Source: Asterella californica
Lineage: Eukaryota; Streptophyta; Marchantiopsida; Marchantiales; Aytoniaceae
Direction of reading: 5' to 3'
DNA: 64,000 nucleotides
Assembly (NCBI GenBank): GCA_036924285.1
Contig: JAYKYS010000018.1
Span: forward strand, 496,001 to 560,000
Part shown: piece after piece, positions 15,673-64,000 of the stretch
How the letters are laid out: each line of letters starts with the position of its first letter
Position numbering within the stretch: position 1 is the first letter of the stretch
The notes under the pieces: model-generated
Seen by the model: only the letters and a program-made list of their open reading frames with translations
Databases searched by the model: none
What the model was told of the DNA's origin: nothing
Position numbers and translations under genes: made by a program

Positions 15673-17302
15673 ATGGCCCCCCTCCAGCAAAGAAACAGCA
15701 TGGCCCCGCTCCAGCAAAGCACGAGCGAAGAAGCTCCCATCGAGCAGCTTCTTCATCAAGCAAGTTCCATAGAAGCAAGAAAGGGCAAGATCCATGCCGT
15801 GTACCCTGCTCAAGAAGTACCCCGCGCCATACCTAGGCCAAGGACAAGAGATTTTTTGATTGCTCGGTTATCCTTCAAAGGAGAACCGAGCAAACGAGAA
15901 ACGAGGAGTATCAACTAAAAAAAACTTTCAGCGAGAGCATCTTGTAGTGACGCAGGATTACTCCTTTTGCCCATTTTGTATACAAGATATCGTTCCCACA
16001 GAGGATTTACGCAAGTAACGCTGCTCTAAGTTCTAAGATTTATTCAAACACACAAACACACGGGTTTTGCCTAGAAATCCCGTCTTCTCACAAAACCACA
16101 CAAAACCACACGTCTTCCTGACACGCCAAATGGTGCTCTGGAACTAAACAAACAACTACCAACTAAAATATCACACAACTATTCACAAAGAAGCTCGGGA
16201 AGACGATCTTCCTGCTTCCAGGTTGCTTCTTCCGGTCTTCTTGATACCGTCTTCCCGAAGTGATTCTCGTCTTCTGGGGGTTCAGCTCGTCTTCTCACAC
16301 CTCCAGAAGGTTGTCCTGCTTCGCAGAAGTCACCTAGCAACGGTCGTTACACCCTGTGATTAATCCAACGGGTTAGATTAATCACAGGGTGTATGCCCCC
16401 TGTAGCCTTCCCAGGCTTCTGCCTACGGAAGTGGTCTTCCTGCAGCACTACAACGACATTCACCTTCACGGAAGCTCAATAGAAGTCTCGGAAGCTCACT
16501 AGAAGAAGATAAGAAGATGGGGAAGGTGGGAGAAGATGGGGAAGATAAGAAAATCCAAACAAGAGAAAACAAGATGAAAAGAGGCAATTAAGATTCCGAC
16601 AGGCTTCTAGTCCGGATCTTGACTAACAAGCCATCCCTGCTTGTAATAGTTTAGGGAGGAAGACAACAAACGTGAGTACTGTTGCACCGTCTTCTACTCG
16701 AGGATGTCGTCTTCTGTTGCGGGAAGTAGGCTTCTTTCTTCTTCACTTCGCTGCTCTGACTGCTCTGTCTTCTGAGATCCCTTATCCATAAGACCGTTCG
16801 TACGCAGATCCCAAGTGCTCTACTGAACGAGTCAAGCTACACTTCCACAACCGTTGACATTCACCGCCACTCAAGAAGCACACTTCCCATGCACAATTGG
16901 GAGCGAATTCCAAGAAACCCACCACGCAGAAGACATGAACGAAGCTTCTACACTCAAATCCACAATCTATTCTTCGAGAAGAAGTCACAATGGCATTGGG
17001 AAGCTCACTCCCTCTACTTCCTGCGTCTACTCCTCGACACATCAGTCTAACCAGCAGGACTGCACGAGGATGCCGTTCCCTACTCTAGAGTCCACTACTC
17101 ATCTACATCTCCAAACCACTGCTGGTACGAGCATGCAGACCCCTTCTGTGTATTCTCAGACTATTCGTATGTTTCCAACAACGGGTGTAGTGTACACTGT
17201 GTACTTCTAGTGTCTAATCTGTCTCCTGCACCGTAAGATTGGTATGTGCGTGCAGAACTACAGAATTATCAAACTCTAGAACTATGTCTCCTATTCTTCG
17301 AT

Positions 17303-17314
17303 CCTACTTATGTC
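17303..17314 (-). promoter_or_regulatory. Degenerate TATA box of the D1 LTR
   Basis: Minus strand GCGACATAAGTAGG sits where the D2 copy has CGATATAAGTAGG (52054-52066), so the D1 TATA box carries a T to C change. It lies downstream of the LTR coding frame, which places that frame in U3. Confidence 0.45.
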
Positions 17315-17535
17315 GCTGCCATGAGAACCAGGAGAGACGACCACCAGGGAGAGAGAGGCGCTGACAAGAGGGTGTCACCCCACATGCAAGCGGTTCCCCT
17401 TCCTAATTAGCCATCCACCTTGTTGCTCCTACGCTACCTATGCTGCCACATGGTGTCCTAACTATTTTTACACTGAAAACTGCCACCCTTAATGTTCGGT
17501 CCTACTAAATTTAGAATAGTCAATGGAGTTACTAA

Positions 17536-19852
17536 CTACTCTGATTGCTCGGTGGCAATCTCTACTTGATCTGCTCCTATCGGGGCTCCTAACGCGGCTT
17601 CTGATAAGCTAGAAAGCCCTGCAGTTACCTCGGGTGTCACTGAGGTGGCTTCCTCCTCATTGTCTTTGGCTGGCTCTGCTGTCGCTACTGCTGCGTCTTC
17701 CTCGACTTCAGCTTCTGCTTCGGAAGACAGAAGCGTCTTCTGAGAAGCGGAATCGACCGGTGCTTCTTCCGTCTTCTGAGTCACTGGTGCGGGACTAGGG
17801 ACCATGGCAACCTCATAAGGGTCCGAGGAAGTCGCTTCCTCCACTCGGAATACCTGGGAAGACGGCTCGTCTTCTTGTCTTCCAGAAGACATCTTGTCTT
17901 CCGAGGCGTCTTCCGGTGTCTTCCCGGCTTCCAACGCTGTCACTACCAAGTGCACAGCGAGGTCGAACTCCTCCTTCTCCATTCCGGAATCAGTCGATGG
18001 TGCTGGAGCGTGGGAAGATGCGGTTACAGGTGTCGGAAGCGAGAGAAGATCATAAAGTGTCTTCACTCCTTCGATCTGTCGATCCAAGTACCTGAACATG
18101 CTCTCCCTGCATTCCACCAGCATTGCTTTGGACTCGCTGTCCCATCCTCTAGCCAAGATAAGTAACTTCCTACCCGCGGTGAAGTTGAACTTCTTTCGAA
18201 GCGCTTCCACCGACTGTGCTAGCATCTCCTGTGCACGAGCCTCCGCTGCTTCCCGCTGCGTCTTCTCAACGGCAACTTGCGCTTTTGCGGCTTCTCGCTG
18301 CGTCTTCCAAGTGGTCTGCTATTCTGCGAGGGTGGTGATCTTCTCCCGCACTCGGAGGACTTCATGATCGCGCTGTTGTACGCGCGGCTGCAACTCTTGG
18401 TTGCTCTTCCGAAGCTGCACCAGCTCCTTGGCAGAAGCGGCTGCTTCCGTCTTGTATCTGGCTGCGAGCTTCTCCGTGGTGCGGAGACTAGCTTCCAGCG
18501 ACTCTGTCTTCTTCTGATCTTCTCCCTGTCGCAGCAAGGTGCGCAGGCCGAAGCCAGGTTGCAAGGGCCTCTCCTGAGCCTTCGCTCTCTTCTCCAGCAA
18601 CTCCATAACTAGCTGGATCTCCTTCTGGAAGTAGGCACTGAATTCCTCCAGTCGTCTTCCTGCGGAAGACAAGTTCATCTCCACCACTCGCTCCGCGGTG
18701 TCGACTTCGTCTTCCAGAGGCAAGGAAGCCTCTTCCACCACAATGGCCTTCATCTTCTGCGCACGAGAAGAAGCTACCCTTCTCATCTTCCGGGGTGGAA
18801 GATCCCTCATGGCAGGAGCGGGTCTCTTCACTGCGCTTCCTCGCATCGCAGTAGGAGTATCCCTTCTTCTCTTGTCTTCTGGAGTCTTCGGAAGACTCCC
18901 AGGTGTTGCAGAAGCGGTCTTCCGCTCGGATCGGGTACTCAGCAGTTCTTCCTCCGAGTCTGACTCCGATCCTGAATGAATGAGGGAGATGGGTGTCCTC
19001 GGTACACTTCTGGGACCCATCTTCCTCGGTGGCGTGGCATCTTCCGACTCACTAGACTCATCTTCCCTCACCAGAAGCATCTTCTGGAGAGCCGGGCCTC
19101 AGTTGTGACATCAGAGTGGGAGGGAGCGTTGCGGCTGCCGCTCGGTCATCGTCTTCCAAGGTCTCCTCCTTCACCTCTTGTCGCTACGTTGGCCCATACT
19201 CTGCCAGCTGATCTTCCCTAAGATCCCCCATGGCTACATACAAGTAGCAGAGGAAGGGTGTCAAGTGTCCTCCCGTCGGGGTACCCAAGTACGCTAGCTC
19301 CGTCTGTACATAGTTGTGGATGTACGCGTCTCAGTAGATGGGCACTCTGTCATCCCACACTGATTCTAGGAACTCCACGTCCTGATCTCCTAAGTACCTT
19401 GTCCTCTGCGCTTTCCCCTTGGGAAAGAGATGTAGAAACAACTTCGCCAGAAGTCGCTTCTTCGGCTCCCAGTAAGATTCTATCTTCCAACCGTTCCTCC
19501 CCTGCCTGTCTTCTACGAAAAGGCAGGTGCTGCTCCCAGGCACATGCCACGAACTCACGATCCTGGGCAAGATCTTCTTCTCGAACCAATATCCTCGGTT
19601 CTCGGATTCTGACCTGTGAAAAGCCCTGCGCCACCAATCTTCAGTCCAGGAAGATGGCCTTCCTCGAGCTACTCCTGCCCTCGCAGGTACACGGTTACGA
19701 GGTGGCAACGCTGCCCACACCTCCTCCAGAAGTCCTTGATCGACGAGGTTCCAATCCCACATGAAGAAGTCGAGACCCAACTCCTTGAGGAAAGGAGTGG
19801 CCTCGGTCAATTCTGCCGCTGGTAACACCAAACCTCGCGGATGCATCGTCAT
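17536..19852 (-). pseudogene. LTR-encoded (U3) coiled-coil protein of family D, decayed
   Basis: Sense-oriented coding frame inside the D1 LTR, about 770 codons. The N-terminal part (19852-19331, 173 residues) holds FLKELGLDFF and a tryptophan-rich globular stretch. A TGA at 19331-19333 is followed in the same frame by GGHLTPFLCYLYVAMGDLRE. After a second in-frame stop and a frameshift near 19090 come an acidic serine-rich linker and a basic patch (PPRKMRRVASSRAQK) that looks like a nuclear signal. Then comes a long Gln/Glu/Arg/Lys coiled coil broken by TAG at 18319-18321, where CAG is expected. The last part (18225-17536) ends in an Ala/Glu/Ser-rich acidic tail. Partly preserved copies occur in D2. 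The order matches the U3 frame of family C. The function is unknown. Plant 'putative gypsy type transposon' proteins (PF04195) have a similar globular plus coiled-coil plan, but I could not test this. Confidence 0.75.
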
Positions 19853-21589
19853 GCTGGAAGATCTGTTGCACTAAGCCACAAGCACCTACTATGAGCTGAA
19901 GGCTCAGTCCTTCCCAAGTGCCCACAATCTAGCTTCTACTCCTCAGAAGACGAAACTAGTCTTCCAGAAGACAGCTACTCCGTCTTCCGGGATTCTAACA
20001 GTACTTCCTAGATAGCTCTCGTCTTCCGAGCTATATCTAAACAATCCTATCTAAGCAAGGCCTCGCATGGATTACCAAGAAGACAACCCACCTTGCATTA
20101 CATCCTACTTCCTATCAGAAGATACAAGATTCACGAAACATAAAGTGCATTCGGAAGATGGTTGTGGGCTCCTGCGATGACAGTGGTCTCTGGGAAGACA
20201 CTCGAGACAGCTTCCGATTCAATGTCTTTCTCGGAAGACCTCCCGAAGTCAGACTTCCCTTCACTGGTCTCACATGTCTTCGTCTTCCTATGCGCAATCT
20301 ATCCTCACAACAGTCTCAAGACAATTGCACTCTGTTCTTCTGACTTCTCACCTCTCATACGCACTCAGAAGAAGCTTGCTGCTCGGTGGGAAGACATGAC
20401 CCTCGACCATTCTCTCCAGATTCTGCCAGCAAGTCTTCTCACGATTCTCTTCTAAGTTTGGGAAGAAGAAGGAACGGCTGCTATGGGTCGGACAGAAGAG
20501 ACTCGAAATGGACCCTCACGTCTTCTCGCTCATTTTGCCAGCCCTTCAGTCTTCTAATCTCTCTAGAAAGATGTGGAGTTGAGAAGCTTGGAAGACCGGG
20601 AGGCACATGCCTAGTTCCCGAGTTCCAACTTCTCGAAATAACAAAAGAACTCACCACACCACTCAGGATTCGTACCAAGCCTCTCTTAACACAAAAGCAA
20701 CACAAATCCACTCTTGATACGAATTGGTTATAGTCGACTTCTGAAGACAGTCTTCCGAAGACAGTCAAGTGTAAGAAGCGTCTTCCGAAGATGTTCCCAT
20801 CTTCCGAAGCGTCTTCTGTTCTAGGTTTCGGGGGTAGAGGGTAGTAGGGTAGAGAAATTGATGACTGGGATCGTCAATTTGGAGACGATGGGTAGGGAAG
20901 CTCGAATTGAACTCAGGAAGAAGTAGGAAGATGTCTGACAGAAATTGGGCAGCGCTTCCGCACTCAATGTCCTAATAGGAAAAATGGGGGGTGAGGGTAA
21001 TCGATCAGGCTGTCTGCAAACAACCAGGGAAGCGCAGGGGAATACTAGACAAAGGCGAGAAGAAGTGAGAAGGGGAAAGAACGTGGGAAGAACCTCTACA
21101 GTCTTCTTCTGCTTCTCGAGTTGTCTTCGACCTCCCGCGCGCTTCTGGCTCTGGTCCTAGCTCCAATGCGATTCCACACGATTGCTTCCGCTGTCAATTT
21201 CTGGCCACGCTCCAATTCCACCTTCGATTCTACTCAGCGATTCTCCAATGTCAGCTTCTCGGGAGCTCACAGAAACGCCTTCGCTCTCTGTCTTCCGTAC
21301 TTCAGCAATTCAGTCTCGCCCTTCGCCTAGCTGCCAACTGGTCCTCTCCTCACTCGGTTCCTCTCTCGATGCTCACTCGATGCTCACTCGCGAAGCCTAC
21401 TCTCGTAAATCGATCTTCGCAAGCGCGCTATGCTGCGGGAAGTTGGAATGCGCTAATGCGCTTCCTGCGCATCTTCCTCGCAGATTAGGGGTTTCGACCC
21501 TAGGTGTCTTTCCTGACCTACCTACCACCTGTGTGTTACCTAGTAGGTACACCTACTGTTTTACCTGAAAACTCGTGGTTAGGCCTTCG

Positions 21590-21720
21590 CGGTCACTGTC
21601 TTCCGGAAGACAGGTGTCTTCCGCCGTCTTCTCATCTTCCGCCGTCTTCCCGTCTTCCGAAGACGCAACTGAGAAGACCCTTCCCGGAAGACGGTCGTCT
21701 TCCGAAGAAGTCAACTTCTT
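21590..21720 (-). promoter_or_regulatory. Cluster of TCTTCCGAAGA-type palindromes in U3 of D1
   Basis: Near the start of the LTR the motif TCTTCCG/CGGAAGA recurs many times, often as palindromes (GTCTTCCGGAAGAC, CGTCTTCCGAAG). The same cluster is at the start of the E LTR (62705-62830), and CTTCGGAAG words occur in the C LTR. U3 placement suggests enhancer or transcription-factor sites; the factor is unknown. Confidence 0.45.
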
Positions 21721-21861
21721 ATTAAAAAGCTCATAAGATCATCTTCCCTCTAAGGAAGCAGTAATCTTAAGTAACAACGCTTCTTCAGTTATACAAACAA
21801 GTTATTGATCATAAAAATTTAAAAATTCGTGAATCCTGTAATTTGTGGGCACCACACATCT

Positions 21862-25522: not shown

Positions 25523-25747
25523 TGTAAAGCTCACTTTTTCAATTTTTTGATAGAAGAAGATGGAAATGTAGAAGTTTGTAGAAGAAATAATGAAGATAGA
25601 AGAAGAATAGCTTAGTTTTAGTGAAGAAGAGACTTCTTAAGAAGAGTCTTCGGAAGAAGAGGATAACCTTCGGAAGAAGACCTTCACAGGCAAGATCTGA
25701 GAAAGGAGACTTCGAGAATGCAAATCGTTAGTACGCTATCTTCACGA
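25523..25747 (+). repeat. C 5' LTR, part 1 (before the A2 insertion)
   Basis: It matches the start of the 3' LTR at 42761 (TGTAAAGCTCACTTTTTC) up to TATCTTCACGA. The uninterrupted 3' LTR reads straight through ...TTCACGAATAGTCC at about 42945, so the A2 insertion point is exact. Confidence 0.92.
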
Positions 25748-33082: not shown

Positions 33083-33115
33083 TCTGGATGGCACATACCG
33101 GAGGATGTGCAGGTT

Positions 33116-33128
33116 CAGAGGGGGTGGA
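33116..33128 (+). other. A2 polypurine tract
   Basis: CAGAGGGGGTGGA directly abuts the 3' LTR. It primes plus-strand DNA synthesis. The same sequence is in A3. Confidence 0.8.
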
Positions 33129-34522: not shown

Positions 34523-34897
34523 ACGAATAGTCCGAGGAGCTCACAGTCGGGACATAGTCTGAGTAAACACGAGCTACCTACCCAGGAAGGGACAGGAACG
34601 ATGAGAGACGTCGGCGAAGACAGCATGCGCATGCCCTTGTCAGGTCGACGACAAGCAATCAGAGGCGACTTCGGCACGTGTGAGAGTTTAAATCAAGCTA
34701 TATACTAGGAAAACTAGCTCATTTCCCAAATCCACTCTTAGCGCTCAGCTGCTCTCCAATTGCGGACGATAAGTTTACACGAAGATAGAGAATTTGGACG
34801 AAGGCAATCAGTTTGGGCGAAGGTCAACTTGAGCGAAGACTAGCAATTTAGACGAAGTCTACCTCACAGCCAGTCTAGCAACCTTCGTCTGATCACA

Positions 34898-35146
34898 ATG
34901 TCTATCGCGACGAAGTTACTGAAGATTAGAGCTTTTGAGCAAGACCAAGAGGAGTTAGTGCGCCTTCGGCCGAAGCTGAAGGAGTTAGGTCTCAATTTCC
35001 TAACCCTGGGGGGCTGGACTAAGGTGTCTGGCAAGTTCATTAGCCAGATATGGATGTGTGAAGATCACGGGGACGAAGATACGAGCGAACGCGGAAGTTC
35101 AGTTAGAGGAGTTCAGGGCACAATTAGGCTTAGGAGTGTAGATTGA
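34898..35146 (+). pseudogene. Deleted remnant of the C U3 coding frame (5' LTR copy)
   Basis: The first 57 or so codons match the 3' LTR copy (KLKELGL, LTLGGWTKVSGKFISQI, MCEDH). The frame then jumps across the deletion into out-of-phase sequence from the last exon-like part and stops. Only the 3' LTR keeps the full-length frame. Confidence 0.8.
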
Positions 35147-35240
35147 GTGAAGATGATCGTTGGGTAGCGAAGGTCTTCCGCCTTCGTAGGAAGATAAACA
35201 GTTAGCACAGTTAGAAAACAGTTACGTTAGGACGAAGTAG

Positions 35241-35247
35241 TATATAA
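35241..35247 (+). promoter_or_regulatory. TATA box of the C 5' LTR
   Basis: TATATAA in GTAGTATATAAGCAGCGCG, conserved in the 3' LTR (45094). It is the probable start-site element for the genomic RNA and lies downstream of the LTR coding frame. Confidence 0.6.
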
Positions 35248-36084
35248 GCAGCGCGATCCACAGCCCTCGTGCCTTTTCCATGTTTTCAGTTCTTTATTAA
35301 TTAATTTCCATTTCCCAAAAGTGCGGAGCGATGTTGTGAATGCTTTGGACGAAGATATTTTCCTCCGAATATTCGATGTTTGCTGTCGCAGGTGTAATTT
35401 CTGATTGACGAAGATCTTCGCCGTTAGACTTAAGCGAATGGACTTTGACGTAGGAACTTTTGAAGAGCCTTCGGCCGAAGTTGAAGCTGTAATCTTCGTG
35501 AAGAGCTTTTGAACGAAGATCTGAGAACAAATCAGTGAATGTGAAGTGGAAGAGATAAGTTAAATTGTAAGGAGAGTTTGGAATATGATGGCTTCGACTT
35601 AAGTTTAGCTTCTTCAAATAAGTGGGATTCTTAAGGGTGAAGATTTAGTTGCAAGAACACTCCTTAGGAAGAGTAGGGGCTTACCCTTGGAACCTTGATG
35701 AGAAATCTGTATTCTTTTGTCGTTTCAGAAGAAGACTAGTAACATTTCAGCAGTATTTTATATTCTTCATTCATTCAAACAACTGTCTTTTCAATCTTTT
35801 CTTTGTATTGTTAGAAGGGTCCTTGATCAAGAACTATTTCGTTGTTGTTTGTATTCGATTTGTCAGGTTTTGCTTGGGTTTGGTTTCTTATCAGACTTAA
35901 CTCTCATCCGGATATTATTCCATTTCGTGAGAATAACAGAAAACTATCTGAATTATCATTGTGACGTTGTAGTACTGTGTTTTGTGTAATTGTTAACTGT
36001 ATCTTCGTGGGAACGATCTTTAATTTACTATTTCCGATACTTTGTGTTTCTCTGGGTTGTTACATATAGAAACATTAAAACTTT

Positions 36085-36102
36085 TGGCGCCGCTGCCGGG
36101 GA
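36085..36102 (+). other. C primer-binding site (tRNA-Asp-like)
   Basis: TGGCGCCGCTGCCGGGGA, 20 nt after the LTR. It differs from the usual plant tRNA-Asp site (GTTGCC) at one base. Family D has TGACGCCGCTGCCGGGGA. Confidence 0.8.
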
Positions 36103-36516
36103 TACAGATTTAATTTTTACTTGAATTCAGTAAGTTGTAACCGTCGACATGTATGTCGAGGGGAGTATGAGCGCCTTCTGAAGAAGATCAGAAGACGAGA
36201 AGGACCAGGTGAGCACTGAAAAGAAGATTGGTCTGCGAACAACTGTTGGAAGAAGTCCAACGTCAGAAGGAAGCTACGAAGGAGCGAAGACGTCAAGCAG
36301 CTCAGAAGTGGCAAGAGAAAAAGTTTATCTGAAGGGACTTCATCTTCGCTTGAAAGAAGCTCTGTACCTATTTCACCACGGACACAGTACGAGAAGGACG
36401 AGCAGAAATACTGGAAGAAGAAGATCGATATCGGATCTCCAAGTTCGAGTACAAGGAGTGGAGAGAGTTCACCTAAAGACAGCTCATGGTTACCATTTCC
36501 TTCAAGGACCACAATT

Positions 36517-38996
36517 TTGCATGAATCCCTGTTCGAACCGACACAGAAGGACAAGACAATTCTGGCTGAAGACGAAGAGATAGATAGAGAAGAAACTCCT
36601 TCACTTCGAAGAGTGGAGTTATTCCAATCTTCATCTTCATCTTCATCTTTAGGTTCAGCACAGTCAGAATCCAATATTTTGACTACTCTTGCAGAAGATT
36701 CAAATCCAAGAGCGGAAGTTGCCTTAGAATTGATCGTTAAACATGGACCGGAAATCACAACTTTTGTGGAACTTCTAAAGAAACAAAGAGGAGAGGATTT
36801 AATTCGAGAATTGTTGTCCTTGAGATCACCTGCGCTTCAAATCTCGAATCTCAGACCTCATGGGACTCCAGGAGTATCACTTTTCAAATTACGGAGCCAA
36901 GGGACCTCCACATCGTCTTCACCAAAGAGACAAGACGAAGTTCGTGAAGAAGAGGGCAAATCAGCCGAAGATCATTCATCCAAAGTAAACCCTCTTGATA
37001 CAAGAGCAAGTAACGCTGTTGTAAACACTCTTGCAAATCTGACTCTTCAGCCGTCCGGGAATTTGTTCAATACTAAGCTGGTGGTGTCTTCATCTCTGCC
37101 TACACAACTAATATACAGACGGAAGCAGCAACCATCAGGCACAGTTCCTCCAGTACCTCATCCAATGATAGGGGTATCACCATCGTCAGGGACGCCACCA
37201 TTCGCTCGCCAAAACTATCCTAAATTTGGCGGTGAAGATTCGGATAGTGATGGAGACGGAGAGAACGCAGATTCTTTTGTTAAGCAATTTGAAGCGGTAT
37301 CACATGCGAACAAAGAAGACAATGATCCTGATCGGACAAGGATTTTCCCCAGCTTGTTGAAACACGCAGCCGGAAAATGGTATAGTCATGCCAATCTAAC
37401 TCCCGCAATCATATCTACTTGGGACTTAATGAAAAATGAATTCCTAAAAAGATTTCAGGAACTGAATTATAACAAGCATGTGTTACATAAAGTAAATAGC
37501 GTTAAACGTAAGAAGAAAGAGTCTTTGGAGAGCTACGTCCAAAGATTTTACGGAATTTTGGATAGATTACCTGCCAATGGAACACACCCAGCCTACACGA
37601 CGGCACAGGCAGTAGAGTGGTTTGTGAAAGGGTTGCCTTCAAAGCAACAAACGTGGGTTAGACGGTTTGATACGTCAACCTTGGAGCGAGCCATTGATTC
37701 TGCTGAGAATTACGAATCCTCCAATATCCTTAGCAGAGACCATGAAAAGACCTCGGAGTCGAGAAAGAAGAAGAATTTCAGTAAGTCCAAGAATAGTCGC
37801 GAAGAAGAGAAGAAGAAGAAGAAAAAGAAGTTAAAACGGAAACATAGAAAATATTCATCTTCAGAAGAATCTTCAGAAGAGTCTTCGGATGAAAGCTCAA
37901 CATCGGAAGACGAAGATTCCTCATCTTCGGACGAAGAGGAAAAGCGTAAGAAGCGGAAAAGAATGACGAGGTCTAGACCTCCGATGGTGAAGAGAACTCC
38001 ACCACCTAAAGATCACGCACTTGATGATCTTCTCAAGAAGTTCGAAGACCTCAAGGTGCAGTTGGTGAGAACGCCGGAAAGAAGTAAGTCGCCGACTAGT
38101 TCTCGTCCGAATTTGTGGTGTACTAATTGTGGGAAGCCAATACATGCCAACACGGAATGTTTTAACAGCAAACCACTTACAATATACATTCAATGGAATG
38201 GGCGCTAGTGTATGAGCCCAACTACTTTGTGGAATGTGAAGATGGGGTCTATGGAGTACAAACCCAAAAGGGTGCTGTGGTGTCCACTCAACCCCAACAA
38301 TTTACTCCTATTCCTCCGGTACACATTCAACATTTTGTACCCCGACAAATGACAACTAACGTTACCCAACGAAAGTTTACCCCTGGAGGATACCAACCAC
38401 CACCATCTCTTGGTACATCATGTTTTAATTATGGCGCTAATGGTCATTGGGCTCCTTCTTGTCATCATCCAAAGAAACAAGTAGGATATATGCCACTGTG
38501 TGGGAAGTGTGGTAAACTCGGTCATGGAGTCACAGATTGTACGAATGAACCAATTCAGAAGACTGGAGTGAGATTTCAACCACCTACCAACCAACAACGA
38601 CCAGACGCAAGAGTAAACATGGTCGAATTGGTAGAAGATCTGAAAATTTGCACTCCTTCGAAGGACGATGGATATGGTTGGCCAGAAGACAAGGAGATTC
38701 TGGTAAACAAAGTGGAGACTCGAAGTGGGAAGAGACTACTTCGAAAGAGAGAGACTTTAGCAGAAGCTGCAGCTCAGGAGGCGAAGGACCTTAAAAAGAC
38801 TGAGCAGAAGCAACTGAAGAAAGAGAAGAAAGCGCACAAAACTTTGACAGAACAAGTGTGCGAAGTTGTAGAGAAACAGACGATATCGGCACAGGCAGAT
38901 GATCATAAAGAAGAGCAGAGAAAGAAGAAGACCTCAGGAATACTACCTGCGGACATCTCCGGACTTCTATTGAGAAGTGAGGGCACTACTCAATAG
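36517..38996 (+). pseudogene. C gag
   Basis: Structural polyprotein of element C, in two overlapping frames: 36517-38208 and 38193-38996. The first holds the retrotransposon gag core (FGGEDSDSDGDGEN ... RTRIFPSLLKHAAGKWY ... ESLESYVQRFYGILDRLP), a long Lys/Ser/Glu-rich tail and a CCHC knuckle CTNCGKPIHANTEC. The second has CFNYGANGHWAPSC, where the second Cys is Tyr (TGT to TAT likely), and an intact CGKCGKLGHGVTDC. The 16-nt overlap implies one frameshift. The true start may lie upstream, since 36103-36516 is also purine-rich and gag-like in composition. Confidence 0.85.
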
Positions 38997-39890
38997 AGAA
39001 GTGAGTACGCAAGCCAAGGAAGTGGAACCTAGCAGAGAAGGGTCTGGGAAGATTCGAGCTGAAGTCTCTTCGCCCGAAGTCGGTCGACCATCCGAATTAC
39101 GGAAGCTGGTGGCAGACCAACCTAAGAGGATTGTTCCAGTGGTGAGCCCTCATTACAACGTAGTAGAAGATTTGCTGAACCAACAAGCTAACATAACTAT
39201 CAAGCAGTTGGTCGAAGACAATAGGCTCTACAGGAAGTTGTTATTGGCAGCCTTGAGAAAACCGGCGAAGGCTAAATCGAAGAATCTGCCTTCATTATTT
39301 CAAGTTGGATTGGAGGACTTAGGATCTCCAGAAGTAGACATCGAGATAGATGGATGTCTAATAAAGCATGTGTCTATAGACTCCGGTTCTAGTGTGAACA
39401 TTATTACAGAAGAGACAGCGCATGGATTGGGTTACACTAAGTTCGAATCAACACCAAGAGTGTTGAGGATGACGGATCAGAGCAGAAGAAGACCTTTGGG
39501 AGTACTGCGAGATATCACTACGACAATTGGTGGGATAATCTTCAAACTTACCTATATGTACTAAGGCCATTGGTTAAGTCTAGCTATGGAGTGCTTATAG
39601 GTCGACCTTGGCTATATGGTGCTAAGGTAATTACTGATTGGTATAAGCAGAAGTTGTCCTTTAATGATCCTATGAAACCAAAGGATAAGAGTGTCTCTGT
39701 AAGTTGGAAGAAGATGTCACACCAGGGCGAGACATCTTCAACAGATTCAGGATACACTTCGGAAGAAGACTCTTCGTCTTCAAGCAATAGCTCAGAGAAT
39801 GAAAAATCAGGACCTTACATAGTTGTGAACTACTTGCAATGCTATGAGATAGAAGAAGAAGAAGACTGCAAAGGACCTGATGAAGAATAG
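38977..39890 (+). pseudogene. C protease region
   Basis: Aspartic protease that would mature the polyprotein. The first segment (38977-39564) has the active site VSIDSGSSVNII at about 39370-39400. It stops at TAA 39562-39564 because one G is missing near 39558. The frame resumes at 39570 with GVLIGRPWLYGAKVITDW, the conserved protease C-terminal flap region, and ends at TAG 39888-39890. Confidence 0.85.
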
Positions 39891-40055
39891 CAATCATTGT
39901 TAGGACAAAGAAGTTCAGAGGTAAGCCACACATAAGGAATGGTACTGAAATCAGCAATAGTGGATTTAGTCCTCGAAGAAGGGAAAATCTTGAAGATCAC
40001 AACGAAGTTACAAGGAGCCGAATTGGAAGTGTACCATGACATGTTAACATACTAC

Positions 40056-42722
40056 TAGGATGTCTTCGCCTGGAAGATAGAAGACATGAAGGGTATTCCT
40101 GCGAAGTGGGGTCAACATCGAATTGACCTACTGGAAAACTCTGTACCTATGAGACAACGACAATACCGGCTAAATCCTAAATATTCCCTCTTAGTCAAGG
40201 ATGAGATTGATAAGTACTTAAGTGCTGGTATTATTTTTCCTGTCCTTAGTAGTGAATGGGTATCACCTATAGTGATAGTACCCAAGAAGAAGACTGGTAA
40301 AATTAGAGTATGTCAAGATTTTTGCAAACTGAATGCAGCAACTAGGAAAGATCATCATCCCTTATCTTTTACAGATTCTATTTTGGATAGGGTAGCTGGT
40401 CATGAGTGCTATAGTTTTCTCGATGGATTTTCAGGATATAATCAGGTATCCATCAGAGAAGAAGACAAGGACAAGACTACTTTTACCACTGACCGGGGTA
40501 TTTTTGCTTATCACAAGATGCCTTTTGGTTTGTGTAATGCTCCTGCCACATTTCAGAGAATGATGACAAAAATTTTTCAGGAGTATCTTAGGAAGTTTTT
40601 AGAAATTTTTATAGATGATTTTTGTGTTTTTGGTCCAAGGGAAGAACATATAAATTCCTTGGCTATAGTTTTTCAGCGTTGTAGAGATGCTCAGTTAGCA
40701 TTACACCCAGAAAAGTGTTTCTTCGTCATGTCAGAAGGTCTTTTATTAGGACATAGAGTTTCGCAGCGGGGCATTGAAGTAGATGTAGACAAAGTTCAAG
40801 TTATAGTAGCTTTGGATCCTCCCTCAAATGTTAGCGAGTTGCGGGGATTTTTAAGACATGTGGGTTTCTATCGGAGGTTTATTAAAAACTATGCAACACC
40901 ACTAACCGAATTGTTGAAGAAGACTACTGAGTACATCTGGCAGGAACAGAGACAAAAAGCTTTTGAAACACTGAAGACGAAGTTGATTGAAGCTCCAGTC
41001 ATGAAGGCACCAGATTGGAATCTACCCTTTCAAGTGTATGTGGATACTTCAGCATTCGCTATTGGAGTGGTGCTGAGTCAGAAAGACAGCGAAAAGATGG
41101 ACCATCCGATTTATTATGCGAGTAGACAGCTATCAGCTGCAGAGAAGAACTATTCTACTACAGAGCGGGAAGCACTAGGGATGGTGTATTCTGTCAAAAA
41201 ATTTTGACACTATTTGTTGGGATGCGAGTTTGTATTCTACGTGGACCACTATGCTTTAAAACATCTGGTGCAAAAATCTGATTTGTCGGGAAGGATAGCA
41301 AGATGGATGTTGTTATTGCAGGAGTTCAAATTCACAGTTCAAACTCGAGCAGGCAAACATCATGAGAATGCAGACTACTTGTCTCGGTTGAGGACAGGAG
41401 AGCGTCAAGATAACGTAGCAGATGACTTTCCAGATGAAGAACTTTTCCAGCTTACGGTAACCCTCACAAGCAGGTATCATGAGATATATAGATATCTGTA
41501 TTCATTGCAGTGTCCTGAGGGAATGGATGTGGAACAGCGTACGGTGTTCATACACAAGGTCGGACCATACGAGCTGAAGAGCGGTATTCTGTTCAAAAAG
41601 GGGACCGATGATGAACTACGAAGATGTCTAGAAGAAGAAGAAGTAGGAAGAGTGGTGGATGCCATGCATTCAGAATCAGCAGGAGGACATTATGCCCTTC
41701 GCAACACAGTGAAGAAGATCTTAGATGCAGGATATTGGTGGCCCACCATGTACAAAGATGTGCAAGCGATCATTAAAAGGTGTGACAGTTGTCAACGAGT
41801 AGGTAAGCCTACTCGAACTACTCAATGATCACTCCACCCTATCTTACCTCTTGCACCATTCGAGAAGTGGGGAATTGACTTTGTGGGACCTATTCAGCCA
41901 GCAACAAAGAAGACACGAAGAAGATACATATTGGTTGCTACAGATTATGCAACCAAGTGGGTGGAAGCTGAAGCAACAAAGAAAGATGATGCAATAACAG
42001 TGGCAGCGTTTCTACACAAGAATATCATCATCAGGTTTGGATGTCCATTGGAACTGGTGAGTGATAGGGGCACACACTTTTTGAACAACACCATAGAGGC
42101 ACTGACAGAGTACTTTCAGATCAAGCATCGAAAGACTACTCCGTATAATCCTAAGGCGAATGGACTTACTGAGAAAAGCAATGGATTACTGTGTAAAATT
42201 TTGAACAAAGTGACTGTCAATCATGCCTATGATTGGGACACCAAGCTGGATGCAGCGTTGTGGGCATTCAGAAATACAAAGAAAATAACAACACGACAGA
42301 CGCCGTTCTTCTTAGCGTATGGAATACATCCCATTATGCCTATTGAGTTCGAAACCCCTACTTACAAGATTTTGTCACAGGATAGACTGTCTGCAAAAGA
42401 TAGTCAGCTCATCAGATTACAAAGTCTGATGGCACTGGAAGAAAATCGCGGGGCATCTCTGGAGTTAACTAAGGACATACAAGAGAAGCGAAAGAAAGTA
42501 TATGACAAGAGGTTGAGGAAAGTGGAAGTGAACGACGGAGACTTAGTCTTGCTATATGATAGTAGACATATTAAGTTTCCAGGGAAATTACAGCTACGAT
42601 GGATGGGACCATACATAGTCGCACAATGTTATTGCAATAGTTCAGTCCAACTTAAAGACCTGGAAGAAAATCTCTTCGCTACTCGAGTAAACGGAGGAAG
42701 AATCAAGCGATACTACTCTTGA
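40056..42722 (+). pseudogene. C pol: reverse transcriptase, RNase H, integrase
   Basis: One reading frame interrupted by three stops and no frameshift. TAG 40056-40058 precedes DVFAWKIEDMKGIP. TGA 41205-41207 lies in RNase H (where CGA/Arg is expected). TGA 41826-41828 lies before LHPILPLAPFEKWGIDFVGPI (CGA again likely). Reverse transcriptase shows VCQDFCKLN, FLDGFSGYNQ and FIDDFCVFG (40608-40622). RNase H has YVDTSAFAIG, TTEREAL and NADYLSRL. Integrase has the HHCC zinc region with CDSC, then D (GIDF), D (SDRGTHF) and E (KANGLTEKSN), and ends at 42722 with the LRWMGPY module. Confidence 0.92.
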
Positions 42723-42746: not shown

Positions 42747-42760
42747 TGGGGGAAGAAGTA
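42747..42760 (+). other. C polypurine tract
   Basis: The G/A run GGGGGAAGAAG ends two bases before the 3' LTR at 42761. Confidence 0.75.
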
Positions 42761-43320
42761 TGTAAAGCTCACTTTTTCAATTTTTGATAGAAGAAGATCG
42801 AAATGTAGAAGTTTGTAGAAGAAATAACGAAGACAGAAGAAGAATAGCTTAGTTTTAGTGAAGGAGAGACTTCGGAAGAAGACCTTCACAGGAAAGATTT
42901 GAGAAGGGAGACTTCGAGAATGCAAATCGTTAGTACGCTATCTTCACGAATAGTCCGAGGAACTCACAGTCGGGACATAGTCTGAATAAACACGAGCTAC
43001 TTATCCAGGAAGGGACAGGAACGATGAGAGGCGTGGGCGAAGACAGCATGCGCATGCCCTTGTCAGGTCGGCGACAAGCAATCAGAGGCGACTTCGGCAC
43101 GTGCGAGAGTTTGAATCAAGCTATATACTAGGAAAACTAGCTCATTTCCCAAATCCACTCTTAGCACTCAGCTGCTCTCCAATTGCGGACGATAAGTTTA
43201 GACGAAGATAGAGAATTTGAGCGAAGGCAATCAGTTTGGGCGAAGGTCAACTTGAGCGAAGACTAGCAATTTAGATGAAGTTTACGTCACAGCCAGTCTA
43301 GCAACCTTCGTCTGATCACA

Positions 43321-44988
43321 ATGTCTATCACGACGAAGTTACCGAGGATTAGAGCTTTCGAGCTAGACCAAGAGGAGTTAGTGCGCCTTCGGCCGAAGCT
43401 GAAGGAGTTAGGTCTCAGTTTCCTAACCCTAGGAGGCTGGACTAAGGTGTCTGGCAAGTTCATTAGTCAGATACGGATGTGTGAAGATCACGAGGGCAAA
43501 GATGGCTATGCACGACCCGGTAACTAGACCGTTGAGAACTGAGAGAAGGTCCTGTTAGACGAGGTAGGGACGAATGGCGACTTACTTTTCGACAATGCCT
43601 CAATGAAGAGTTTGGTCAAGGAGGACCAGAACTACGGAGAAATCTTCGAACATCCGATGCATCCGACGAATGGATACAAGTTGACCGAGTACCGCGACCT
43701 AGTGAAGAGGAAGATTGCGGAGGCTGTCATGCTGATCCTGAGCCCCCGAAGAACGACTTACCTGACCACTTGGAAGGTATGCTTCTTCGAGAATCTCTTC
43801 GTCGGCAGACGAGCTTACTGGGCGAAGATATTCCATGACGAAGTCCAGCGCCTATGGAAGAAGCAGGATTACGTTTACATGGGGGGCTTCGTCAGTATCT
43901 TTTACTTTGGCATGAGGTGGTTATCGGAGAACGAAGCCAAGCAGTTGGGCTTCGACGAAGATGAAGAGCTAGAAGGTAATGATTTCTCGCCCATTCGTGA
44001 AGTTGAAGGGGCACCCACAGAAGATGTTCAGCAATTGGAGGCTTCGCCGAAGGCACCAGCCGAAGAGCCTCAAGAGACACAGAAGGCAGTGGATGTACAT
44101 ACTTTGATCGATGACGAATAGAGGAGGCGCAGTAAGAGGAAGAAGACTCTTCCGACTTCGCCCATGGACAAGCCGAAGGCACGGAAGAAAGTCAAGAGTA
44201 CAAAGAGGGAGACGGTGGACCTAAGCAGCTCGGGAGCGAAGATGGAAGGTGCTGCTGTCTGTGGCGAAGGTACTTCGGAGGGGTCTGCCTTAGATAATGT
44301 GGACCTGTTCAAGAAGGCAATGCTTTATGGCGAAGAGGTGGTCGTCCCAGTCCTCTGACTTCTTGAAGACAATAAGGAGGACTACGAGAGAGAAGTGAAG
44401 AGGAAGGTGTCATTCTCGGAGATGTTAGCGGAGTTACACTTTAGTCGAGGTACTTGGCAGCAAGAGAAAAACAATCTCCGTGAAGAAGCCCGAAACGTGA
44501 CGAAGTTGAGATTGGAGACAGAGAAGGAGCTCGAAGATCTTCGACGTCAATGTGAAGAAGCCAAGACTGCCTTGAACGGGAAGGAAGAAGAGCTTAAAGT
44601 ATCGATGAAGAGCTTCTCTGACCACATTCAGGAGTTGTCTACTCAGAAGGCTGACTTGCAGCGAAGTCGAGAAGAGTACCAAGTGACAGTTGCCGAGCTC
44701 ACCAAGGAGAATGAGAGCTTGAAGACGAAGGTAGCTGACTCCGAAGACCTTCGAAAGAAGTTGATGCCGGTTCTTTCTGCGTACGTGACTTCGAGACTGG
44801 ATGCGGATTAGCTTGGACTTCTTCGGGCGCTGAAGGCAGAAGTAGTGCAAGCGGAGACGAACCCCGATGGTGTGAAAGTGCGCCTTTCTCGACTTAGACA
44901 GAAAGTAGATAGAGAGATAGACGAGATACGAGCGAACGCGGAAGTTCAGTTAGAGGAGTTCATGGCACAATTAGGCTTAGGAGTGTAG
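43321..44988 (+). pseudogene. LTR-encoded (U3) coiled-coil protein of family C
   Basis: One uninterrupted phase of 556 codons, with five stops (TAG 43525, TGA 43540, TAG 44119, TGA 44356, TAG 44809) and no indel. Each stop is one transition from CAG, CGA or TGG. The N-terminus has RLRPKLKELGLSFL and LGGWTKVSGKF. A middle globular part follows (LSPRRTTYLTTWKVCFFENL, YMGGFVSIFYFGMRWL). Then come an acidic linker, a basic patch (DKPKARKKVKSTKRE) and a long coiled coil (LREEARNVTKLRLETEKELE ...) to the end. The plan and short motifs (LKELGL; GG..FL.YLY) match the family D U3 frame. It lies upstream of the LTR TATA box in sense orientation, so the genomic transcript could carry it near its 3' end. 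Function unknown. Confidence 0.8.
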
Positions 44989-45093
44989 ATTGAGTGAAGA
45001 TGAAGATGATCGTAGGGTAGCGAAGGTCTTCCGCCTTCGTAGGAAGATAAATAGTTAGCACAGTTAGAAAACAGTTAAGTTAGGACGAAGTAG

Positions 45094-45100
45094 TATATAA
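45094..45100 (+). promoter_or_regulatory. TATA box of the C 3' LTR
   Basis: TATATAA in the same context as at 35241. It follows the end of the U3 coding frame by about 105 bp. Confidence 0.6.
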
Positions 45101-45922
45101 GCAACGCGATCCACAGCCCTCGTGCCTTTTCCATGTTTTCAGTTCTTTATTAATTAATTTCCATTTCCCAAAAGTGCGGAGTGATGTTGTGAATGCTTTG
45201 AACGAAGATATTTTCCTCCGAATATTCGATGTTTGCTGTCGCAGGTGTAATTTCTGATTGATGAAGATCTTCGCCGTTAGACTTAAGCGAATGGACTTTG
45301 GCGTAGGAACTTTTGAAGAGCCTTCGGCCGAAGTTGAAACTGTAATCTTCGTGAAGAGCTTTTGAACGAAGATCTGAGAACAAATCAGTGACTGTGAAGT
45401 GGAAGAGATAAGTTAAATTGTAAGGAGAGTTCGGAATATGGTGGCTTCGACTTAAGTTTGGCTTCTTCAAATAAGTGGGATTCTTAAGAGTGAAGATTTA
45501 GTTGCAAGAACACTCCTTAGGAAGAGTAGGGGCTTACCCTTGGAACCTTGATGAGAAATCTGTATTCTTCTATCTTTTCAGAAGAAGACTAGTAACATTT
45601 CAGCAGTATTTTATATTCTTCATTCATTCAAACAACTGTCTTCTCAATCTTTTCTTTGTATTGTTGGAAGGTTCCCTGATCAAGAACTATTTCGTTGTTG
45701 TTTGTATTCGATTTGTCAGGTTTTGCTTGGGTTTGGTTTCTTATCAGACTTAACTCTCATCCGGATATTATTCCATTCCGTGAGAATAACAGAAAACTAT
45801 CTGAATTATCATTGTGACGTTGTAGTATTGTGTTTTGTGTAATTGTTAACTGTATCTTCGTGAGAACGATCTTTAATTTACTATTTCTGATACTTTGTGT
45901 TTCTCTGGGTTGTTACACATTA

Positions 45923-49916: not shown

Positions 49917-50633
49917 CTACGGCTTGTCTGAATCACGAAGGCCGTCTTCTGAGTCAGAACTACTGTCACTGCTACCTTCCGAGATGTCTGGAACAACCTC
50001 CTCCAGTCTTCCCTCACCTTGAGAAGCTTCTTCCGCGCTTGGGAAGACGTCTTCTGAGTAACCAGTACCAAAATCTACTTTATACACGTGATCACCCGGT
50101 TGGTGTCTGTCTTCGCCAAAGATTATGCTCGAGATGGAAGGCTCTTCCAACTCTACCGATCGGATCTTCCTGAGCTCTTCTTCTTTCTTTTGGTGTCTCT
50201 CTGCTCTCTAGAAGCGGTTCGCTGGGGTGAATTAACCCACTCAGGATCTTTACCCGTGCGTCTTCTGCTTCTTCCTCCGATCGGAGGCATCCACCAGAGT
50301 ACTGAGAACCGATGTCCCTCTCCTTCTACCACTAGATCCGGGAGACCAAATGACTGAACAACCAATCACAAGTTCAGAACGTCTTCTTCTCCTGCTTCTG
50401 GTTGCACTCACTGCAATCTTCCAAGATCGAGTCTTCCAAGAAGCTCTTGGAAGCAGGGAAGCGGCTTCTTCCAACTCTCCCTGGGGTATCTTATCAACTT
50501 TTGGTTGCGGTTTCCGTCTTCTAGCAAGATAGAGTCCCACAACATATTCAACTACAATCGAAGTTAGTTCGAAATGAACCTAACTATGGCACACAGATCC
50601 AGGAAGCTTAGAACAGAAGTTACTAAGATGAAA
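49917..50633 (-). pseudogene. D2 gag, N-terminal region
   Basis: Minus-strand leader and gag start downstream of the D2 primer site. Short frames (50540-50250; 50150-49917) are basic then acidic and serine-rich (EGSSDSSSDSEDGLRDSDKP), like the N-terminal part of C gag. No full frame survives. Its expected continuation, the gag core, lies next to it but on the plus strand. Confidence 0.55.
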
Positions 50634-50651
50634 TCCCCGGCAGCGGCGTCA
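50634..50651 (-). other. D2 primer-binding site (tRNA-Asp-like)
   Basis: Minus strand TGACGCCGCTGCCGGGGA, 18 nt after the LTR end. It fixes the orientation of D2 and the 3' end of the family D LTR. Confidence 0.8.
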
Positions 50652-52053
50652 AAAATCGTGCTCACTATATGTAGTGACGTAGGATTACTCCTTTTGCCCA
50701 TTTAGTATAGAAGATATCGTTCCCATAGAGGATTTACGTAAGTAATCGCTGCTCTAAGTTCTAAGATCTGTTCAAACACACAAACACACGGGTTTTGTCT
50801 AAAAAGCCCGTCTTCTCACAAAACCACACAAAACCACACGTCTTCCAGACACGCCACATGGTGCTCTGGAACTAAACAAACAACTACCAACTAAAATATC
50901 ATACAATTATTCACATGGAAGCTCGGGAAGACGATCTTCCTGCTTCCAGGTTGCTTCTTCCGGTCTTCTCGATACCGTCTTCCCGAAGCGATTCTTGTCT
51001 TCTGGGGGTTCAGCTCGTCTTCTCACACCTCCAGAAGGCTGCCCTGCTTCGCAGAAGTCGACTAGTAACGGTCATTACACCTTATTCTCACACTCACCTT
51101 CCAACGGGTTAGATTAATCACAGGGTGTATGCCCCCTGTAGCCTTCCCAAACTTCTGCCTACGGAAATGGTCTTCCTGCAGCACTACAACGACATTCACC
51201 TTCACAGAAGCTCAATAGAAGTCTCGGAAGCTCACTAGAAGAAGGTACGAAGATGGGGAAGATGGGAGAAGATGGGGAAGATAAGAAAATCCAGACAAGA
51301 GAAAACAAGATGAAAAGAGTAAATTAAGATTCCGACAGGCTTCTAGTCCGGATCTTGACTAACAAGCCATCCCTGCTTGTAATAATTTGGGGAGGAAGAC
51401 AACAAACGTGAGTACTGTTGCACCGTCTTCTACTCGAGGATGTCGTCTTCTGCTGTGGGAAGAAGGCTTCTTTCTTCTTCACTTCGCTGCTCTGACTGCT
51501 CTGTCTTCTGGGATCCTTTACCCAGGAGACCGTTCGTACGTAGATCCCAAGTGCTCTACTGAACGAGTCAAGCTACACTTCCACAACTGCTGACAGTCAC
51601 CGCCACTCAAGAAGAACACTTCTCATGCACAATTGGAAGCAAATTCATGGAACCCACCATCCAGAAGACATGAACAAAGCCTCTGCACTCGAATCCACAA
51701 TCTATTCTCCGAGAAGAAGTCACAATGGCATTGGGAAGCTCACTCCCTCTACTTCCTGCGTCTACTCCTCGACACACCAGTCTAGCTAACAGGACTGCAT
51801 GAGGATGCCGTTCCCTGTTCCTAGACTGTCCACTACTTCTATCTACATCTCCGAACCACTGCTGGTACGAGTATGCAGACCCCTCCTGTGTATTCCAAGA
51901 CTATTCGTATGTTTCCAACGACGGGTGTAGTGCGAAGAACTATCTATCAGGTGTCTTCTCTCTAATGTGTCTAGTCTGCCTGCACCATAGAATCGACTAC
52001 TGAACGTTTTAGAACTGGCAGAACTGGTAGAACTCTTTCTCCTACTCTGCGGT

Positions 52054-52066
52054 CCTACTTATATCG
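52054..52066 (-). promoter_or_regulatory. TATA box of the D2 LTR
   Basis: Minus strand CGATATAAGTAGG, about 230 bp downstream of the end of the U3 coding frame (52296). D1 has a mutated version. Confidence 0.5.
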
Positions 52067-52295
52067 CTGTCATGAGAACCAGGGGAGACGACCACCAGGG
52101 AGAGAGAGGCGCTGACAAGAGGTTGCTACCTCACATGCAAGCTGTTCCCCGGCCCGAATTGGCCATCCACCTTGTCCTTCCTACGCTACCTATGCTGCCA
52201 CATGGTATCCTAACTAATATTACATGGAAAAACTGCCACCCTTAAGATAACATGTTCGATCCTACTATATTTGGATTTGTAAATGGAGTTACTAA

Positions 52296-52546
52296 CTACT
52301 CAGATTGCACGGAGGCAATCTCTACCTGATCTGCTTCTATCGGAGCTCCTAACGCGGCTTCTGATAAGCTAGAAAGCCCTGTAGTTACCTCGGATGTCAC
52401 TGAGGTGGCTTCCTCCTCATCGTCCTTGGCTGGCTCTGCTGTCGTTGCTGCTGCGTCTTCCTCGGCTTCGGCTTCTGCTTTGGAAGACAGAAGCGTCTTC
52501 TGGGAAGCGGAGTCGACCGATGCTTCTTCCGTCTTCTGAGGCACGG
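52296..52546 (-). pseudogene. D2 U3 coding frame, C-terminal tail
   Basis: Ala/Glu/Ser-rich acidic tail (QKTEEASVDSASQKTLLSS ... VEIASVQSE) nearly the same as the end of the D1 frame. A3 interrupts it just after the VPSPAP region, whose other half is at 61072. Confidence 0.8.
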
Positions 52547-53829: not shown

Positions 53830-53842
53830 TCCACCCCCTCTG
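53830..53842 (-). other. A3 polypurine tract
   Basis: Minus strand CAGAGGGGGTGGA abutting the 3' LTR, the same as in A2. Confidence 0.8.
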
Positions 53843-53875
53843 AACCTGCACATCCTCTGGTATGTGCCATCCAGA

Positions 53876-61067: not shown

Positions 61068-61071
61068 ACGG

Positions 61072-61913
61072 GTGCGGGACTAGGGACCATGGGGACCTCA
61101 TAAGGATCCGGGGAAGTCACTTCCTCCATGCGGAATACCTGGGAAGACGGTTCGTCTTCCTGTCTTCCAGAAGACATCTTGTCTTCCGGGGCGTCTTCTG
61201 GAGTCTTCTCGGCTTCCAACGCTGTCATCACCAAGTGCACAGCGAGGTCGAACTCCTCCTTCTCCATTCCGGATCCAGTCGATGGTGCTGGAGCGTGGGA
61301 AGATGCGGTTGCAGGTGTCAGAAGCGAGAGAAGACCATAAAGTGTCTTGACTCCTTCTATCTGTCGATCCAAGTACCTGAACATGCTCTCCCGGCATTCC
61401 ACCAACATTGCTTTGGACTCGCTGTCCCATCCTCTAGCTAAGGTAAGTAACTTCCTACCCGCGGTGTAGTTGAACTTCTTTCGAAGCGCTTCCACCGACT
61501 GTGCCAGCATCTTTTGTGCACGGGCCTCAGCTGCTTCCCTCTGCGTCTTCTCAACTGCAGCTTGCGCTTCTGCGGCTTCTCGCTGCGTCTTCTATATGGT
61601 CTGCTCTTCTGCGAGGGCGGTGATCTTCTCCCGCACTCGGGTGACTTCCTGATTACGCTACTGTACCCGCGCCTGCAACTCCTGGTTGCTCTTCCGAAGC
61701 TGCACCAGCTCCTTGGCAGAAGCGGTTGCTTCCGCCTTGTACCCGGCTGCAAGCTTCTCCGTGGTGCGGAGACTAGCTTCCAGCGAATCCGTCTTCTTCT
61801 GGTCTTCTCCCTATCGCAGCAAGGTGCGCATACCGAATCCATGTTGTAAGGGCCTCTCCTGTGCCTTCGCCCTCTTCTCCAACAACTCCATAGCTGACTG
61901 GATCTCCTTCTGG
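61072..61913 (-). pseudogene. D2 LTR, U3 part, with coiled-coil frame
   Basis: Matches D1 from about 17790 to 18635. It encodes the coiled coil and the MLAQSVEALRKKFNYTAGRK segment of the LTR protein (61510 leftwards), then VPSPAP at the A3 edge. Three stops in the coiled coil sit where D1 has CAG (twice) and TGG. The LTR breaks off at 61913 (CCTTCTGG), with plus-strand family D integrase next to it. Confidence 0.85.
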
Positions 61914-62566: not shown

Positions 62567-64000
62567 TGTGGTGCCCACAAATTACATGATTCACAAATTT
62601 TTGAAATTTTTAAGATTAATAACTTGTTTGTATAACTGAAGAAGCGTTGTTACTTAAGATTACGGCTTCCTTAGAAGGAAGATGATCTTACGAGCTTCTT
62701 GTAATAAGAAGTTGACTTCTTCGGAAGACGACCGTCTTCCAGGAAGCGTCTTCTCGGTTGTGTCTTCCGAAGACGGAAGACGGCGGAAGGCGGAAGACGG
62801 AAGACACGTATCTTCCGAAAGACGGCAACCACGGAAGCTTCACCACGTAAGAAGTAGGTGCATCTACCAGGTAGTACCGAATCGGTTAGGTAGGTCGAGA
62901 GGGTCGAAACCCGTTAAACTGCGAGGAAGATGCGTAGGAAGCGCATTACCATATTGCGACTTCCCGCAGCAAGAGCGCTTCTTGGTTAGAAGATCGATTC
63001 AAGAGTGATTGATTTGAGTGAGGAAGGCAGCGAGGTGAAATTGAGTGAGGTCAGGATCGATTCGAAGCTAGAAAGAAGGCGAGGTCGAATTACTGAGAGC
63101 AGAAGCGTATCGAGCTGAAGGAACTTTCTGTGAACTCCCACAAGTTTGAGGAGGAGGAGGAGGACGGCTGAGTGGAATCGAAGGTGGAAGTCTTGATCGA
63201 TTGAGGTGTAGTCAGGAGCTGACAGCGGAAGCAGCTTTGTGGGGTCGCATTAGAACTGGAATCAGAGCCGGAAGCACGCGGAAGATCGAAGACAGCTCAG
63301 GAAGCAGACAGAAGATAGTAGAGGTTCTTCTCATGTTCTCTTTCCTTCCCACCGCTTCTCGTCTTTTGTTTGGTATCCCCCGCGCTTCTCCGGTTGTTTG
63401 TAGGCAACTCGACCGATCAATTTCCTCTCCATGTTTTTCCTTTTGTGACACTGGATGCGGAAGCGCTGCCCAATTTTTGTCAGACATCTTCTTGTTTCTT
63501 CCTGAGTTCAATTCGAGCTTCCCTACCCATCGTCCTCAAATTGGAGAGCTCAGCTATCAATTTTCCTACCCTATCATCCTTTTACTCCCGAAACCTTGAA
63601 CAGAAGACGCTTCAGAAGATTGGAACATCTTCGGAAGACGCTTCGGAAGCCTGACTGTCTTTGGAAGCTTAACTGTCTGTAAAGACGACTGTATACAATT
63701 CGTATCAAGAGTGGATTTGTTTTGCTTTTGTGTTAAGAGAGACTTGGTACGAATCCGGAGAGACTTAGTGAGTTGTTTGTTATTTCTAGAAGTTGGAAGA
63801 TGGGAACTAGGCCTATGCCTCCCGGTCTTCCAAGCTTCTCAAATCCACATCTTCCTAGAGAGACTAGAAGATTGGAAAGGCTGGCAAAACGAGCGAGAAG
63901 ACGTGAGGGTCCGTTAGGGGTCTCTTCTGTCCGACCCATAGCAGCCTATTTCTTCTTCTTCCCGAACTTAGGAGAGAGTCGTGAGAAATCTTGCTGGCAG
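62567..64000 (+). repeat. E 3' LTR (incomplete at window edge)
   Basis: TGTGGTGCCCACAAATTACA onward, the reverse complement of D1 from 21856 to about 20420. It includes the TCTTCCGAAGA cluster at 62705-62830. The U3 coding frame would begin to the right of the window. Confidence 0.88.

Follow-up and report, generated by a model that had tools for sequence, protein, structure and literature searches.

In plant retrotransposons, the LTRs are usually regarded as regulatory, non-coding regions. Extra open reading frames (ORFs) in such elements were reportedly first surveyed by Steinbauerova et al. In retroviruses, sag of MMTV is a sense gene, and nef of primate lentiviruses is an accessory frame that begins before the LTR and reaches into the 3' U3. 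As far as the available part of a paper on this animal model goes, sag is a protein gene within the LTR (PMC11998498). In plants, according to the accessible portion of a 2020 review, additional ORFs (aORFs) are found in the element interior, in most cases between pol and 3' LTR, in sense or antisense orientation, and the product of maize Grande gene23 is nuclear, with a promoter of its own (PMC7264820). The corresponding portions of two surveys describe TRP28 frames, in antisense orientation, in 97% of Retand clusters (2025; PMC11963269) and non-chromoviruses with extra ORFs and with LTRs of up to ~5 kb (2019; PMC6317226). In the same portions of these three sources, aORF proteins appear as poorly conserved and sometimes nuclear or SMC-similar. 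Narrow phrase matching in open-licence papers revealed, among the titles and abstract openings listed, no case of a protein frame inside a plant LTR.

We analyzed a stretch of 64,000 nucleotides from Asterella californica (hereinafter, the window), in which two retrotransposon families, denoted C and D, carry homologous frames within their LTRs (Table 1). Like the aORFs or eORFs of Grande (gene23), RIRE2, Retand, Ogre and Athila, which are often located near the 3' end, as far as the sources describe them, the C/D frame apparently represents an extra gene beyond gag-pol. However, the aORFs in these descriptions are internal, and TRP28 of Retand is antisense, whereas the C/D frame is in sense orientation and is found in solo LTRs as well as in the two LTRs of an element. 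The C/D frame is an additional ORF with its home in the LTR, and what is new, compared to the internal plant aORFs described in the portions of the sources cited above, is a sense frame inside the LTR. The likeness to sag is one of location, and Sag differs in being a type II membrane superantigen encoded by an animal retrovirus; nef differs in starting upstream of the LTR, in contrast to the C frame, which starts 560 bp within it.

Element C and the frame in its LTR

Element C belongs to the Ty3/gypsy group: it has paired TG..CA LTRs, is flanked by the 5-bp target duplication CATTA (25518-25522 and 45918-45922), and encodes protease, RT, RNase H and integrase in this order. Its decayed gag-pol yields Pfam matches in the usual succession (Retrotrans_gag, Asp_protease_2, RVT_1, RT_RNaseH, rve), with the protease match below the Pfam cut-off (21.3 vs 24.3 bits). 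The chromodomain that defines chromoviruses is absent among the three Pfam families that the integrase frame (ending at 42722) matches, although a diverged one could escape this search. Phygy and Selgy, of moss and spike-moss, are likewise Ty3/gypsy elements without a chromodomain and, presumably, have a non-seed host in common with C. These elements, as characterized in the available part of the 2019 survey, are rather short, with a polyprotein that fills about the whole internal part (PMC6317226), whereas the LTRs of C and D are 3.2 and 5.9 kb long.

Element C is inserted in a gag-pol copy belonging to another family, and its own 5' LTR is split by a nested LTR element (25748-34522). The first piece of the 5' LTR is 81% identical to the start of the 3' LTR (25521-25747 vs 42759-42949, blastn); on the two sides of a 1424-bp deletion, identity between the two LTRs is 94.8% and 97.4%. 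We take the candidate primer binding site of C to be of the tRNA-Asp type. Candidate sites of this kind (..CGCCGCTGCCGGGGAT) are found 20 nt past the LTR end in C (36065-36103) and 18 nt past it in the second copy of D (50633-50669), a spacing that exceeds the usual few bases.

Table 1. Coordinates of the LTR frames of families C and D and of the associated element features in the window
Feature	Positions	Strand	Remarks
5' LTR of C, first piece	25523..25747	+	TG after target duplication CATTA; precedes nested insertion
5' LTR of C, remainder	34523..36064	+	1424 bp of frame missing; first 61 codons retained (34898-35080)
Candidate primer binding site of C	36085..36103	+	20 nt past 5' LTR end
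Decayed gag-pol of C	36517..42722	+	gag, protease, RT, RNase H, integrase
Candidate polypurine tract of C	42748..42758	+	directly upstream of 3' LTR; read from sequence
3' LTR of C	42761..45917	+	3157 bp, TG..CA; second copy is the 5' LTR
TATA-like box before C frame	43122..43127	+	199 bp upstream of ATG; also in 5' LTR at 34699
U3 frame of C	43321-44988	+	556 codons including terminal TAG; 5 internal stops
TATA box after C frame	45094..45099	+	also in 5' LTR at 35241; candidate genomic-RNA promoter
Solo LTR of family D	15943..21856	-	5914 bp, TG..CA; target duplication AGATG on both sides
Homologous frame in D LTR	19852->17536	-	two frames, together ~770 codons; 3 internal stops and at least one frame change
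D copy 2, frame end then remaining LTR	50670..52546	-	
D copy 2, main frame piece	61068..61913	-	91.5% identical to 17783-18628, gap-free
Third D-like LTR	62567..64000	+	79% identical to 21856->20423; window end cuts before frame would begin

The initial annotation described a 556-codon sense frame in the 3' LTR of C, located upstream of a TATA box at 45094 and interrupted by five stops and no indel. This description holds in each respect: the LTR that encloses the frame is bounded by TG..CA and the target duplication, both ends of the frame are present in the 5' LTR as well, the TATA box is downstream of the frame, and no frameshift is required anywhere along it. The frame lies wholly within the LTR of C, and the homologous frame of D lies in a solo LTR; neither is in the internal region where aORFs are found, and a location outside the LTR, which the initial annotation had named as fatal to its claim, is not what the copies in the window display. 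The internal stops are TAG, TGA, TAG, TGA and TAG, with no TAA among the five, a pattern that fits decay through methyl-cytosine. The proposal that the frame was once selected, inasmuch as each of these stops is one transition away from a sense codon, carries no weight, for the same is true of every stop codon.

The openness of the frame is unusual for this sequence. The other five reading frames of the same stretch contain 18-39 stops each, and when the whole LTR is shuffled 200 times with dinucleotides preserved, the lowest stop count of any 555-codon stretch in any frame averages 15.6, with a minimum of 8, against the five observed. Because biased composition alone can leave few stops, and the C-terminal half of the C protein is charge-rich, a chance or low-complexity frame without any coding history has to be considered. 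Besides the comparison with shuffled sequences, three LTRs of other families in the window speak against it, with 13-19 stops per best 400-codon stretch compared to two in C and one in D, bearing in mind that these LTRs are shorter (1273-1390 bp) and hence offer fewer stretches to choose from. The gag-pol of C has accumulated five internal stops and three frame changes, some of them possibly natural, over ~2069 codons; stops per codon are more frequent in the U3 frame (5/555), which has zero frame changes, so the notion that this frame decayed no faster than gag-pol was rejected.

The translated C frame consists of a globular N-terminus (residues 1-215), an acidic segment (216-268), a basic patch with 14 K/R vs 3 D/E in 32 residues (269-300) and a helical, coiled-coil-like C-terminus (352-555). 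In the 5' LTR, the frame survives only as its first 61 codons and its terminal region, and the part that follows the deletion is out of frame. The simplest account of the 1424-bp gap is indeed a deletion in the 5' LTR because the frame of D sits within a bounded LTR. The converse possibility, an insertion into the 3' LTR of C alone, was rejected given that the 5' LTR has the frame start and end region and that the solo LTR containing the D frame is bounded. The two LTRs of C share 183 bp of frame, in which there are 13 differences, with dN/dS of 0.61; this pair looks neutral, without a clear sign of selection, as expected of decay after insertion.

A homologous LTR frame under purifying selection in a second family

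The globular N-termini of the C and D frames are 23% identical over 221 columns (tblastn E 1.3e-4). Their Smith-Waterman score of 89 compares with a mean of 31.6 for shuffled sequences (z 11.6), none of the 1000 shuffles being as good, and the best of the 35 remaining frame pairings between these two stretches scores 57. When the window is searched in six frames with C's own LTRs excluded, the D tile is the top match to C (91 vs 57 for the next one). The two proteins also follow a common plan, in which a globular domain is followed by a charged or basic linker and a coiled-coil-like helix. The LTR frame appears to be old because the two families, with frames only 23% identical, both have it in the LTR.

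The second copy of D is interrupted in its coding part by a young element of another gypsy family (52547-61067; LTRs 99.9% identical), the gag-pro frame of which matches DUF4100 (PF13352). The third D-like LTR, at the end of the window, starts 57 bp past a frame (62033-62509) with 49% identity to the integrase end of C over 158 aa and without a match in Pfam.

Comparison of the two D copies over 843 bp of uninterrupted frame gives 36 synonymous and 32 non-synonymous differences, that is, dN/dS of 0.245 under a simple substitution model that does not allow for methylation-driven change, for one copy pair from which a few bases at the nested insertion in copy 2 are left out. The same pair yields 0.55-1.58 in the other five frames, and random placement of the same substitutions yields 0.72 on average, with none of 2000 placements as low as the observed value. 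The short tail taken alone has dN/dS of 0.50; for the main piece and tail together, the value is 0.285, again with 0/2000 random placements as low. No gaps separate the copies in the coding pieces (846 and 245 bp), compared to 12 gap events in the 1587 bp of adjoining LTR. The LTR frame of D has been under purifying selection, and because of the dN/dS of 0.25, unmatched by any of the 2000 random placements, we conclude that it was a selected gene. The main piece contains one stop in one copy and three in the other; part of the divergence therefore postdates the death of these copies.

The strongest evidence for a gene is that a second family has a homologous LTR frame, together with the dN/dS of 0.25. 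Accordingly, the claim of past selection, which the initial annotation made for C, is upheld in part: the C frame probably is a former gene, given its homology to D and its openness, but the LTR pair of C itself does not contribute a clear signal. A chance frame is hard to reconcile with the homology of the globular domains across families and with the dN/dS and gap pattern of D; with the stop counts, homology and dN/dS all against it, this explanation is largely refuted, and we consider it exceedingly improbable.

Another alternative accepts a coding history while denying the frame a role: a gene captured from the host, or an aORF once internal, would have been drawn into the LTR, selected for a while, and then carried along as a hitch-hiker. 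It is compatible with the state of the frames, every copy in the window being broken, and with the diversity of the known aORFs, for which several sources are thought likely in the part of the 2019 survey at hand (PMC6317226). Nevertheless, the LTR location in two families with frames only 23% identical and the selection evident in the D pair make this scenario improbable.

Candidate promoters and the possible role of the product

Each family has a TATA-like box ~180-200 bp upstream of the ATG of its frame, so that an own promoter is possible in C and in D. In C, the box at 43122 is a candidate for this role, with one other ATG between it and the frame; a third TATA-like match in this LTR, besides the two in Table 1, is at 45612. 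The match in D, at 20035, precedes the ATG by 183 bp and is poor in sequence (GATATAGC); a stricter TATA pattern has no match across this LTR, and downstream of the frame, a bare TATA occurs only at 15982, near the LTR end. Because the TATA signals in D are poor, its frame is not placeable in U3 with certainty, and a sense frame in the LTR upstream of the genomic TATA, as in sag, is seen in C only, taking the box at 45094 to be the genomic one.

Two readings of a true LTR gene differ in how it would be expressed. Under the first, the gene would be read in the manner of MMTV sag or HIV nef, from the 3' LTR copy only and without a promoter of its own, the RNA being a long or spliced element transcript that starts in the 5' LTR and has the gene as its final frame. 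The layout of C is in keeping with such expression: the frame is in sense orientation, downstream of integrase and before the better TATA box at 45094, as in retroviral U3 genes. Furthermore, the 5' copy could then decay free of cost, and in C the deleted copy is indeed the 5' one, although the 1424-bp deletion may well postdate insertion. Given also that a TATA-like box precedes the frame in both LTRs of C, we regard this mode of expression as rather unlikely.

Under the second reading, which we consider the best explanation but endorse tentatively, with slightly less than even confidence, the C frame is what decay has left of an element gene that resides inside the LTR and would be expressed from a promoter of its own in the initial LTR segment. 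The product, with its globular domain followed by the basic patch and the long coiled coil, may have served the element as an accessory protein in the nucleus, where it would have affected transcription, RNA or integration complexes in trans. A nuclear accessory role appears the most likely one because of the analogy with the aORF proteins of seed-plant Ty3/gypsy elements, for which such a role has been proposed. A gene within the LTR is present in two copies per full element, and one copy is kept in each solo LTR. It is even possible, if somewhat doubtful, that there is an entire Ty3/gypsy lineage of non-seed plants in whose LTRs an ancient accessory gene is kept, such that every LTR would be a complete unit of promoter, gene and terminator, and solo LTRs that remain after recombination could still make a protein with trans effects on living elements.

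If LTRs of plants do harbor a selected gene, annotation misses a gene class, and solo LTRs need not be inert. The dating of elements by LTR divergence would then mix coding and non-coding sites, and plants would have an equivalent of the genes that retroviruses encode in their LTRs.

Database searches and other features of the window

The lead towards PF04195 and PF20167 in the initial annotation was not borne out: hmmscan of Pfam, Transposase_28 (PF04195) included, found zero families at E<=5 for either of the two globular domains, although too distant a relation could escape detection. For the X-masked C frame, 10 families came up at E<=1, each of them under its cut-off and most of coiled-coil types. 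In a protein database, the full C frame had no match at E<=0.01 among 7993 scored candidates, namely, those sharing the most words with it, and residues 1-225 had none at E<=10 among 1953 candidates. As a check of coverage, the gag-pro frame of another family (57343-59349) gave 119 matches among 7902 scored candidates, the best 17 being proteins from short contigs at 57-62% identity, followed by those from Adiantum, Riccia and Physcomitrium. The negative result for the C frame in this database is weak because the host itself is seemingly absent from it. Among viral contigs, none of the 67 pattern stretches was confirmed for the C piece, and the D piece was without a pattern match. The predicted folds of the stop-free pieces are poor (pLDDT 55 for C, with a helical middle, and 37 for D), and two fold searches with the model of the C piece returned no match at E<=0.001.

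Elsewhere in the window, a 194-aa frame on the minus strand (378-959) has no Pfam match at E<=1 and, in our estimation, resembles plant transposon accessory proteins. Fragments of Mutator-type (MULE; SWIM just under the cut-off) and DDE_Tnp_4 transposases are located at 3308-5987 (minus strand) and 11244-11801 (plus strand). The region 1288-2413 is densely packed with short inverted repeats of the GGCGAAACACGTnTGTTTCGCC type that are separated by GGGGTAAGGGGTACCCCTTACCCC, the copies mostly being 103 bases apart.
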